From positions 1 to 41,848 of the forward strand of contig JAFVBX010000046.1 in assembly GCA_017479675.1 (NCBI GenBank): a stretch of DNA of 41,848 bases, in the 5' to 3' direction. Under the pieces are notes generated by a model. It did no database searches. It had not been told where the DNA came from and saw only the letters and a list, made by a program, of their open reading frames with translations. This document shows positions 6,454 through 18,263 of this stretch, one piece after another. Each line of letters opens with the position of its first letter. Positions within the stretch are counted from its first letter, which is position 1. The DNA comes from Prevotella sp. GTDB lineage: Bacteria > Bacteroidota > Bacteroidia > Bacteroidales > Bacteroidaceae. A program made the translations under genes and the position numbers.

Positions 6454-7794
6454 ATGCTTGACAGAGTAAGGCAATACATATCAAGGAACCACCTGATAGC
6501 AGCTAACGGCACGTATCTCGTGGCGCTGTCGGGTGGGGCAGACTCCGTGTGTCTGCTGCGCATGATGCTCTCCCTGGGCTACCGTGTAGAGGCTGTACAC
6601 TGCAACTTCCGCCTGCGTGGCGAGGAGAGCGACCGCGACGAGCAGTTCTGCGAGGCGCTGTGCCGTGAGCACGGCGTGAAGCTACACAAGGTGCACTTCG
6701 ACACCAAGGAGTATGCCGCCCTCCACAAGGTGAGCATAGAGATGGCGGCGCGTGAGCTGCGCTACGACTATTTCGGACAGCTCATGCAGACCATCGGCGC
6801 CGCAGGCATCCTCGTGGCACACCACAGGGACGACAGCGTGGAGACCGTGCTGCTCAACCTGCTTCGAGGCACAGGCATACGTGGGCTGGAGGGCATTAAG
6901 CCCGTCAACGGCAACGTCATACGCCCTTTGCTGTGCCTGTCGAGAGACGAGATACTCTCTTACCTCCGTTCGTGCGGTCAGGACTACATCGTTGACAGCT
7001 CCAACCTCGTTGACGACGTGCAGCGTAACAAGCTGCGCCTCAACGTTATACCCCTACTGAAGACCATCAACCCCTCCGCCATAGACAATATCGCCACCAC
7101 CTCACGCCATGTCGCCGAGGCTGTCAAGGTCTATGACGCGGCGATGGCACGCGGCATCAGCGAGTGTCTCAGCGACGACACCATCGACATTCCGAGCCTC
7201 TACCAGCAGTCGTCGCCCGAGGCGGTGCTCCACGAGATACTGAGCCGCTACGGCGTTCCCTCCAAGCTGGTGGGACAGATATTCGACAGCCTGCTGACAT
7301 CGCCCACAGGAAGCCGATGGCAGGCAGACCCCTACCTCATAGTGAAAGACCGCGACACGCTACTCATAGGCAGGCAGCCTGTCGATGCCGCCCCCCTCGT
7401 GATGCCGGAATGTGGAAGGTATGTTTATAACGGGAACGTTAACGGGAACGGGAACCAGACTGTTGATGTTGAGGTGAGAGGCAGGGCTGCCATAAAGCGC
7501 ATCAGCAAGGAGCCCTTCTTCGCCACTCTCGATGCCGACAAGGTGCAGTTTCCCCTCACCATACGCCGTGCGCAGGCTGGCGACCGCTTCACCCCCTTTG
7601 GCATGCGAGGCAGCAAGCTGGTGAGCGACTACCTCACCGACCGCAAGCGCAACCTCTTTGAGCGCAGCCGCCAGTTGGTGCTCCTCGATGCCACTGGCAC
7701 CATACTGTGGCTCGTGGGCGAGAGGGTGGCTGACGTCGCTTCCGTAACCCCCGATACAATAAAAGTGCTGTGCGTGCGTTATTCTAAAGAATAA
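6454..7794 (+). CDS. tilS: tRNA(Ile)-lysidine synthetase
   Basis: Attaches lysine to C34 of tRNA-Ile(CAU) so that it reads AUA. The PP-loop LVALSGGADSVCLL is near the N-terminus, followed by HHRDDSVETVLLNLLRGTGIRGL, and the C-terminal TilS domain has LTIRRAQAGDRFTPFGM, SDYLTDRK and WLVGERV. I take the ATG at 6454 (446 aa) because the upstream in-frame TTG lies in repeat DNA. Odd: residues about 327-334, in the linker before the C-terminal domain, read Gly-Asn-Val-Asn-Gly-Asn-Gly-Asn and are encoded by a repeat shared with valS and the following lipoprotein gene. Confidence 0.95.
   Translation: MLDRVRQYISRNHLIAANGTYLVALSGGADSVCLLRMMLSLGYRVEAVHCNFRLRGEESDRDEQFCEALCREHGVKLHKVHFDTKEYAALHKVSIEMAARELRYDYFGQLMQTIGAAGILVAHHRDDSVETVLLNLLRGTGIRGLEGIKPVNGNVIRPLLCLSRDEILSYLRSCGQDYIVDSSNLVDDVQRNKLRLNVIPLLKTINPSAIDNIATTSRHVAEAVKVYDAAMARGISECLSDDTIDIPSLYQQSSPEAVLHEILSRYGVPSKLVGQIFDSLLTSPTGSRWQADPYLIVKDRDTLLIGRQPVDAAPLVMPECGRYVYNGNVNGNGNQTVDVEVRGRAAIKRISKEPFFATLDADKVQFPLTIRRAQAGDRFTPFGMRGSKLVSDYLTDRKRNLFERSRQLVLLDATGTILWLVGERVADVASVTPDTIKVLCVRYSKE
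7432..7458. repeat. In-frame GGGAAC-type hexamer repeat in tilS
   Basis: Four six-base units (GGGAAC, GTTAAC, GGGAAC, GGGAAC) followed by CAG begin on a codon boundary of tilS and encode GNVNGNGN. All 27 bases match valS 16821-16847, and 21 bases match 8901-8921. Confidence 0.92.
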
Positions 7795-7817
7795 TTTTGT
7801 TGTTCTGAGGAATAATA

Positions 7818-15472: not shown

Positions 15473-15506
15473 CATTCGCAAAAAGTATAAACAGATTTTC
15501 AGACCA

Positions 15507-18263
15507 ATGGAATTAGCAAGCAAATATTCTCCGCAGGAGGTAGAAAACAAGTGGTATCAGTACTGGACAGACCATAAGCTCTTCGCCAGCAAACCCGACG
15601 GCAGGGAGCCTTACACGATAGTCATCCCGCCGCCTAACGTGACGGGCGTGCTCCACATGGGACACATGCTCAACAACACCATTCAGGACATCCTCATCCG
15701 CAAGGCGCGCCTCGACGGCAAGAACGCCTGCTGGGTGCCGGGCACCGACCATGCGTCGATAGCTACGGAGGCGAAGGTGGTGAACAGGCTGGCGGAGCAG
15801 GGCATCAGGAAGCGCGACCTGACGCGTGAGGAGTTCCTCAAGCACGCGTGGGACTGGACCAACGAGCACGGCGGCATCATACTGAAGCAGCTCCGTAAGC
15901 TGGGCGCTTCGTGCGACTGGGACCGCACGGCGTTCACCATGGACGAGAAGCGCTCGGAGTCGGTGATGAAGGTGTTCGTGGACCTCTACGAGAAGGGCTA
16001 CATCTACCGCGGACTGCGCATGGTGAACTGGGACCCGAAGGCGCAGACGGTGCTATCTACCGAGGAGGTGATATACCGCGAGGAGAAGTCGAAGCTCTAC
16101 CACCTGAAGTACTACGTTGCCGATGCCGAGGAGAACCCCGTCGTGCTGACAGGCGAAGAGGGCGAGGTATGGCACAAGGACGAGAAGGGCTACTACGCCG
16201 TTGTTGCCACGACGCGCCCCGAGACCATCATGGGCGACACGGCGATGTGCATCAACCCGAAGGACGTGAAGAACAAGTGGCTCAAGGGCCACAAGGTCGT
16301 AGTGCCGCTGGTTGACCGCGTGATACCTGTCATCGAGGACCGCTACGTGGACATTGAGTTCGGCACGGGCTGTCTGAAGGTTACGCCGGCGCACGACGTG
16401 AACGACTACAACCTGGGCAAGACGCACAACCTGGAGATTATCGACATATTCAACCCCGACGGCACCATATCGGAGGCTGCGGGCATCTACGTGGGCATGG
16501 ACCGCATGGACGTGCGCCGACAGATAGCCATAGACCTCGACGAGAAGGGGCTGATGGACCACGTGGAGGACTACGACAACAAGGTGGGCTACTCGGAGCG
16601 CAACCAGGACACCGCCGTGGAGCCGCGCCTCTGCAAGCAGTGGTTCCTCAGCATGCAGCACATGGCTGACATAGCCCTGCCGCCGGTGATGAACGGCGAG
16701 CTGAAGTTCTACCCCACGAAGTACGTCACCACGTACAAGAACTGGCTGGAGAACATACAGGACTGGTGCATCTCGCGCCAGCTGTGGTGGGGACACCGCA
16801 TACCGGCGTACTTTATTGACGGGAACGTTAACGGGAACGGGAACCAGAACGATGACGAGGAGGCTGAACGCTTCGTCGTTGCACTGACCAAGGAGGAGGC
16901 GCTGAGGAAGGCGCAGGAGAAGTACGGCAAGGACATTACCATAGACCAGCTGCACCGCGACGAGGACGCCCTCGACACGTGGTTCTCGTCATGGCTGTGG
17001 CCTATCTCGCTCTTCGACGGCATCAACAACCCGGGCAACGAGGAGATAAAGTACTACTACCCGACAAGTGACCTCGTGACGGGTCCCGACATCATCTTCT
17101 TCTGGGTGGCGCGCATGATTATGGCAGGCTGCGAATACCAGAAGCAGATACCGTTCAAGAACGTATATTTCACCGGCATCGTGCGCGACAAGCTGGGCAG
17201 GAAGATGAGCAAGTCGCTCGGCAACTCGCCCGACCCGCTGGAACTCATAGAGAAGTTCGGCGCCGACGGCGTGCGCATGGGCATGATGCTCGCCGCTCCT
17301 GCCGGCAACGACATACTCTATGACGACGCACTGTCGGCACAGGGCATGAACTTCTGCAACAAGATGTGGAACGCATTCCGACTGGTGCAGGGATGGGAGA
17401 CGGAGGACAAGCCGGCTTCCGACTCTAACAGGAAGGCTATCAGCTGGATGAACGCCAAGATAAGGAGCGCATACGCCGAGATAAACGACGACTACTCCAA
17501 GTACCGCCTCAACGAGGCGCTGATGGCAGCCTTCAAACTGTTCACCGACGAGTTCTCTGGCTGGTACCTGGAGATGATAAAGCCGGCATACCAGTGCCCG
17601 ATAGACAAGGAGACGCTGGAGGCAACGCTCGACATCTTCGACAAGCTGCTGCACATCATCCACCCCTTCATGCCGTTCATCACCGAGGAACTGTGGCAGC
17701 ACATCGCCGAGCGCAAGGACGGCGAGTCGCTCATGGTCGATGTCTTCAAGCTCGACGCGCCGACGGAGGCTGACGAGAAGCTGATGGCAGACTTCGAGGA
17801 GATGAAGCAGATAATATCAGGCGTGCGCGGCGTGCGCCAGACGAAGAACATAGGTCCGCGCGAACCGCTAACACTTGAGGTAATAGTGGCAGGCGACGAC
17901 GACAAGGTGATAACGCAGTGCCCCGCACTCGGTCCGGTGATAAAGAAGATGGCTGGACTCAGCGACATACAGTACGTGCAGCAGAAGGGCGACGGCTCGT
18001 CAGCCTTCATGATAGGCACACGCGAATATGCCGTGCCGCTGGGCGACCTCATCGACGTGGAGGCAGAGATAGCCAAGGCTGAGGCACAGCTGAAGCACCT
18101 CGAGGGCTTCCTCATGGGCGTAAGGAAGAAGCTCGCCAACGAGCGCTTCGTTGCCAACGCCCCCGAAGCCGTCGTTGCCCTGGAGCGCAAGAAGGAGGCT
18201 GACTCACTGGAGAAGATTGCGGCACTGGAGCAGACGCTGAAGGAATTAAGAGTTAAGAATTAA
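15507..18263 (+). CDS. valS: Valyl-tRNA synthetase
   Basis: Charges tRNA-Val with valine and hydrolyses mischarged threonine. Class I signatures are present: [16 protein letters not shown] (HIGH motif) near residue 45, [10 protein letters not shown], the editing domain with [22 protein letters not shown], and RKMSKSLGN (KMSKS motif) near residue 570. The C-terminal coiled-coil arm ([18 protein letters not shown] and onward) is intact, so 918 aa is full length. Odd: residues 439-446 directly after [13 protein letters not shown] are encoded by the GGGAAC-type repeat, extending a loop next to the active-site domain. The last residues (LRVKN) and stop are written by the downstream heptamer tract. 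Confidence 0.97.
16821..16847. repeat. In-frame GGGAAC-type hexamer repeat in valS
   Basis: Identical over 27 bases to tilS 7432-7458, in the same reading phase (GNVNGNGN then Gln). It is followed by an acidic Asn/Asp/Glu stretch that may be decayed repeat. Confidence 0.92.

Follow-up and report, generated by a model that had tools for sequence, protein, structure and literature searches.

AAC-anchored hexamer tracts inside genes of a Prevotella genome: a candidate spreading repeat filtered by protein tolerance

Several kinds of short repeats occur dispersed in bacterial genomes. Rickettsia palindromic elements are palindromic repeats of 100–150 bp lying inside pre-existing open reading frames (ORFs) of different genes, and the same region of orthologous genes can hold inserts (PMC3767692). 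Small dispersed repeats of cyanobacteria are about 20 bp long, dispersed, tandemly repeated and possibly mobile (PMC2884548). Heptamer direct repeats include TAACTGA, found mostly just upstream of start codons (PMC4679880), and GGGNATC, forming short tandem arrays throughout a genome (PMC4692102); both have period 7, a nearly fixed unit and a mainly non-coding location (PMC4679880, PMC4692102). REP/REPIN sequences are palindromic, extragenic, high-copy non-autonomous repeats associated with RAYT transposases (PMC3116915). The present analysis concerns tracts of hexamers anchored by AAC, first noticed in tilS, valS and a lipoprotein gene of a 41,848-nucleotide Prevotella sp. contig (JAFVBX010000046.1; hereafter the window) and then followed through its genome, G000, and relatives.

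These tracts are a variety of intragenic short dispersed repeats. They share with the Rickettsia elements their location inside ORFs (61 of 63 tracts) and their status as insertions in ValS and RecG, but differ in being 18–54 bp long (one of 78), non-palindromic overall, built of modular hexamers and read in four frames. The original prediction, made from the window alone, had compared them to the Rickettsia elements; the comparison is good in principle, but runs of 3–9 hexamers (one of 13) with no long palindrome are not such elements. With the cyanobacterial repeats they have in common the size of about 20 bp, dispersal, tandem repetition and possible mobility, whereas here the hexamer unit is degenerate, its AAC fixed and its other triplet specific to the genome, and the location in G000 is mainly coding. 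Mobility between close strains is reported to mark the cyanobacterial repeats, which Elhai described in 2008. Like the heptamer repeats, the tracts are short tandem arrays dispersed through a genome; unlike them, they have period 6, a variable unit and, in G000, a mainly coding location. As high-copy short repeats within one genome they resemble REP/REPIN, but they lie in ORFs, no long palindrome was found in them, and the one tract folded as single-stranded DNA, that of tilS, folds no more strongly than its shuffles (z -0.63). No published description of AAC-anchored hexamers in Prevotella was found among titles and abstract openings, a body of text that leaves out most subscription papers.

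Four copies lie in the window (Table 1), all in frame with an xN reading (Gly/Val/Asp-Asn). The copy positions of the original prediction are confirmed. Bases 7430–7459 in tilS are identical to 16819–16848 in valS, and the shared string is 30 bases, not 27. The lipoprotein gene carries AACGTTAACGGGAACGGGAAC at 8901–8921 and GGGAACGTTAACGATAACGATAACC at 9315–9339. A 24-base core has three matches in the window at ≤3 mismatches, versus none in 100 dinucleotide shuffles. The proposed Gly-Asn-Val-Asn-Gly-Asn reading applies, as such or as a near variant, to the window copies; in other parts of G000 this DNA is also read as VPVNVP, TGTLTGT or LFPLTFP.

The core is common in G000 (1.78 Mb, 117 contigs, estimated 80% complete). 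An 18-base version gave 82 matches (≤3 mismatches) versus 2 for a reversed control, collapsing into 63 tracts of 3–9 units each, with one of 13, and exact windows of three GNNAAC units numbered 133 versus 1 for the control. The leading units of the 63 tracts are GGGAAC (102/337) and GTTAAC (63/337), partly since the core selects for both; in 59 exact tracts rebuilt from 100 listed of the 133 GNNAAC places, GGG makes up 76 and GTT 53 of 218 units. The 63 are core-like tracts only: G000 has further GNNAAC tracts (for example on C23, C46, C52, C53 and C55), which the frame counts do not include, and the unit search in G000 covered GNN units only. All but two of the 63 tracts lie inside ORFs of at least 130 amino acids. 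Many hosts are housekeeping genes. Those named, most of the hosts, by interpretation of Pfam matches include valS, tilS, leuS, cysS, alaS, rpoN, dnaX, dnaG, ligA, recG and topA, genes for a ClpB/ClpC-type ATPase and a RadA-like protein, ftsY, secD, rsgA, mnmA, ksgA and obg, as well as nqrA, lptD, lptC, gltB, dxs, ribD and genes for a MurI-like racemase and a MiaB-like protein.

Four readings of this DNA occur. Assigned by longest ORF, the 63 tracts comprise 40 GN, 13 VP, 6 TGT and 3 FP readings and one without a reading; the 61 in ORFs of at least 130 amino acids comprise 40, 12, 6 and 3, and the 49 with a Pfam-domain host ORF 30, 11, 6 and 2, respectively. Each strand has one stop-bearing phase (stops in 60/63 and 57/63 tracts), and no tract uses it, the phase in which GTTAAC gives TAA included. 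The FP readings in L048 and L061 are at the N-terminus, in stretches that look like signal peptides. For tract 61 (L056) the longest ORF may give the wrong frame: the start of the opposite ORF resembles the signal peptide of a lipoprotein, and in that ORF the reading would be FP, not GN. Because four reading frames are used, the repeated thing is DNA and not a peptide. Homology of the GNVNGN stretch at the protein level is rejected on the same ground, and the four frames argue against shared ancestry of the residues, excluded earlier from unrelated hosts, as well as against selection for any one peptide. Purifying selection filters the frames. Likeness in unit composition between frames is partly built in, the tracts having been picked by likeness to GGG-GTT-GGG, and is not used as support.

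Comparison with orthologues locates the tracts as additions. The ValS tract is absent in all 15 aligned genus relatives, including the sister genome G008 (ValS 91% identical), and stands opposite a five-residue gap in PDB chain 1gax_A. RecG has eight extra residues in G000 and none in 14/14 aligned genus relatives, the G008 match spanning residues 1–146 only. Judged from these alignments, the tracts are shown to be insertions relative to orthologues where well aligned (ValS, RecG). TilS also has extra residues in G000, and G008 lacks the tract; since no relative has a constant sequence around the site, the TilS case carries less weight than those of ValS and RecG, and no TilS row stood above the alignment cut among the named-relative loci. 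By its own terms the original prediction would have fallen if all relatives carried the residues in both proteins or if the core were absent elsewhere in the genome; instead, relatives lack the residues in ValS and, less clearly, in TilS, and the core is common in G000. Of 14 G000 tracts alignable to G008 DNA, three are clearly common to both genomes (rsgA, the RadA-like gene, a lipocalin gene), those of ftsY and topA correspond to degenerate AAC units, and the remainder to other sequence or a gap; the first lipoprotein-gene tract of the window faces a gap (62% identity). At the ValS site the relative G044 has a different insert, and among 22 named relatives four (L156, L161, L164, L167) carry hexamers of other alphabets in the loop, which from these sequences looks like an insertion hot spot. 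The ValS loop of L166 holds an unrelated palindrome-like insert.

Host proteins appear to set limits on where tracts persist. Of 49 tracts, 17 fall inside main Pfam envelopes versus 31.0 expected, a value as low in 0 of 5000 simulations; tracts 5, 14 and 42 (repeat families Reg_prop, TPR) were excluded, ORFs are truncated at locus ends, and a tract may itself end an envelope, which would inflate the 'outside' count. The tracts are located mostly outside conserved domains. The earlier view of tolerance in protein loops and linkers, with a six-base period preserving the frame, is supported.

Tract-rich genomes are scattered. At ≤2 mismatches the core matches 5/60 genus genomes, more than once only in G000 (51), G008 (33) and G005 (4). 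Four consecutive GNNAAC units match in 79/398 genus genomes, 25 of which (a manual table count that includes G000) have at least 10 overlapping windows, the maximum being 169; what is counted is the window, not the tract, and one long array may lie behind some of the totals. Of 198 genomes sampled from the order three match: G000, a genome with 3 windows, and a third with 27, whose listed places all fall on one contig. AACNNN ×4 AAC matches in 10/16 named relatives near by ValS, six of them with at least 10 windows. Of eight further named genomes, most of which their titles mark as isolates, three match, with one window each; no tract-rich isolate was found among these eight. The close pair L158/L159 differs by 74 versus 0 windows, and the examined L158 stretch holds no tract. 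Mapped onto a 24-row ValS tree, the tract-rich label (8 rows) takes five changes, and well-supported branches force four of these. With labels shuffled the average is 6.9, and 40/500 shuffles need as few as five, so the label is hardly clustered.

The variable triplet also differs between genomes. G000, G181 and G350, searched with GNN, have GGG, GTT, GAT and GCT among their listed places; G399 has GAA, TAA and GAT, its sampled units also including a single GGG and a single GTT; G411 has GAA, GAT, CAA and CTT. The TAA unit is unreadable in the xN frame. The 21 sampled G399 tracts (20 regions from listed places) give 5 TKTK and 4 xN readings, 8 without an ORF of 150 amino acids, 2 in opposite phase 0, and 1 each in same phase 1 and opposite phase 2. 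For the 25 sampled G411 tracts these are 15 without such an ORF, 6 xN, 2 in opposite phase 1, and 1 each in opposite phases 2 and 0. Examined loci of G181, G350 and G207 contain 16 distinct tracts (12 GN, 2 VP in one ORF, 1 TGT, 1 none).

A second repeat is found within the tracts. E2 is a 29-base dispersed repeat with the unique sequence GACTCGAAGAGATGAGCCGCAGGCGAATA, whose 23-base core (≤3 mismatches) has 11 copies in G000, 4 in G134, 1 in G008 and 0 in 11 other genomes. The G000 copies are on C9, C13, C25, C32, C33, C52, C60, C95, C102 and C106 (L264–L278), those of G134 at L265–L271. AAC units stand on both sides of 10/11 copies in G000, two of these having only one or two units per side. 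Since E2 copies lie within tracts, defined DNA, at least the E2 sequence, was copied. Of the G134 copies, one is in an ORF and flanked by hexamers, and three lie near period-7 AACTGTG-like arrays; from this placement, hexamer and heptamer arrays seem to have an equivalent role around E2. E2 has two possible mini-hairpins, in which 96.7% of cells are paired and 3/10 distinct rows have one pair with both bases changed; this is suggestive only, and E2 folding is no stronger than in shuffles (z 0.57 and 0.53).

Arrays of period 7, scored as a trinucleotide recurring at least four times at spacing 7 and placed by simple ORF calling, lie outside ORFs in 7/12 cases in the window (8% of its bases) and in 78/113 in G008 stretches, while period-6 arrays lie inside ORFs in 4/4 and 40/59. 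The twelve of the window include those at 2059–2131, 4554–4585, 6420–6451 and 32582–32612, and four of the twelve are directly upstream of start codons. Those near start codons resemble the TAACTGA repeats in placement (PMC4679880).

The explanation preferred here, with a probability of roughly 0.57, is a system of AAC-anchored short tandem repeats that spreads and is filtered by what proteins tolerate. That a DNA-level repeat system is under strong protein filtering is well supported; its route of spread we infer. The tracts would be lineage-specific tandem arrays of AAC plus a variable triplet (GNN in G000), arising and spreading as DNA, in both orientations and irrespective of the host gene. 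Their turnover is indicated by the few tracts clearly common to G000 and G008 and by the L158/L159 difference. Template switching from one existing tract to another, and slippage inside a tract, may let the arrays grow and spread in six-base steps via an AAC(G) anchor, and each genome would drift toward its own set of triplets, which would account for the genome-specific alphabets. Selection would then purge copies disrupting frame or fold. For E2 the arrays could provide either a landing site or its arms, and the mostly extragenic period-7 arrays may be their non-coding counterpart.

The strongest competitor, possible though clearly less probable, is independent local slippage, in which tracts expand from AAC seeds within each gene, alphabets reflect codon usage or mutational bias, and nothing moves between genes. 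Unit order bears on it directly. In the 59 exact tracts, units at lag 1 are alike in 33/159 cases versus 31.2 at random, contrary to the prediction of single-unit slippage; at lag 2 the count is 25/100 versus 19.6 (p 0.09, not significant). The excess of identical neighbours expected of microsatellites made by single-unit slippage is absent at lag 1; at lag 3 there is an excess. Slippage alone also sits badly with the identical 30-mers of tilS and valS, with one alphabet over many loci per genome and different alphabets at one locus between genomes, and with E2 inside tracts. Shared 3-unit strings number 72, versus 34.0 after shuffling between tracts (p 0.0005).

Several observations weigh against the preferred explanation, and some of them favour slippage. 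Identity at lag 3 is enriched (14/41 versus 8.0, p 0.0125), as tandem duplication predicts, and in G399 and G181 such duplication can be seen at higher order. At the ValS position matching the L167 tract, the tract-poor relative L169 carries GAAAAC, from which that tract may have grown locally, and many tracts lie in variable loops. After reordering within tracts, 3-unit sharing is no longer significant (72 versus 60.7, p 0.12; 2-unit p 0.03), so block copying is unproven. GN readings, well above a quarter of tracts, indicate that protein selection also acts and suggest that the hydrophilic GN reading is tolerated best. The AAC anchor, though strong in these two genomes, G000 and G008, is no general property of the clade: among period-6 runs (a trinucleotide recurring at least four times at spacing 6, so that one array may count repeatedly) AAC accounts for 4/7 and ACG for 3/7 in the window, and for 28/94 and 21/94 in G008 stretches chosen around tracts (N 6), and AAC for 4/29 in the named relatives L154–L170, which were not so chosen (AAA 5, N 6). 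Its dominance rests partly on that selection. As a whole, the unit statistics fit drawing from a genome pool plus some tandem duplication. Pure block copying is not claimed: the first test's tract set had been chosen by core likeness, and the 100-place test weakened the result. The mobile or copied element originally proposed stands as a dispersed DNA-level repeat, absent at the same site in relatives; a mobile tract is still only a proposal, unit-order sharing being only weakly above chance once each tract's own units are fixed.

Rather unlikely is a novel AAC-anchored repeat-writing activity that would add mixed hexamers to genes and intergenic DNA as near-independent draws from a genome-specific set, by steps of six bases in genes and often seven outside, with an alphabet shifting between close species. 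Selection at the protein level for Asn-rich linkers, akin to low-complexity insertions, is improbable: GN is the commonest frame (40/61) and tracts keep mostly outside conserved domains, but the 21/61 tracts giving VP, TGT and FP peptides contradict it, and 8/21 sampled tracts of G399 and 15/25 of G411 have no 150-amino-acid ORF. An assembly or binning artefact of metagenome-assembled genomes, which the incomplete, fragmented G000 and the zero or one window in each of the eight named genomes might suggest, is very improbable, as tracts in conserved genes preserve the frame, G000 and G008 share orthologous tracts, and assemblies of different projects carry tracts with their own alphabets.

Other repeats were seen in and around the window. 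A 48-base palindromic element, GTCATCTCGACC...GCTCGGGATGAC, at 906–953 inside a nadE-like ORF (39–2036), folds into a predicted hairpin of -10.6 kcal/mol; the same element immediately follows the dnaX hexamer tract (L023) and occurs also in L052. A period-9 array, CCCTATAGT × 8.8, occupies 9347–9425, in the gap that separates the lipoprotein gene from the ORF after it.

Table 1. Hexamer tracts of the window and their host genes.
Feature	Position	Strand	Content and basis
Hexamer tract, tilS	7426..7459	+	TATAAC GGGAAC GTTAAC GGGAAC GGGAAC + CAGA; sequence, tract inventory
First hexamer tract, lipoprotein gene	8892..8921	+	GTAAAC GACAAC GTTAAC GGGAAC GGGAAC; peptide VNDNVNGNGN
Second tract, lipoprotein gene, 3' end, diverged	9309..9338	+	GAAAGC GGGAAC GTTAAC GATAAC GATAAC
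Hexamer tract, valS	16821..16856	+	GGGAAC GTTAAC GGGAAC GGGAAC CAGAAC GATGAC
tilS, host gene	6436..7794	+	Pfam ATP_bind_3, TilS_C
Lipoprotein gene, host of two tracts	7818..9344	+	ORF; no Pfam match
valS, host gene	15507..18263	+	Pfam tRNA-synt_1, Anticodon_1, Val_tRNA-synt_C

Tracts are carried by dozens of conserved genes, including valS, leuS, cysS, alaS, dnaG, ligA, recG, ftsY, rpoN and secD, with insertion demonstrated in the two well-aligned cases, and the same few letters yield four kinds of peptide, depending on frame. They can mislead protein annotation and alignment. They also constitute a natural experiment on the insertion tolerance of housekeeping proteins and on the spread of short repeats in bacteria, and since close relatives differ as sharply as 74 and 0 windows, comparison of strains should allow a test of the mechanism.

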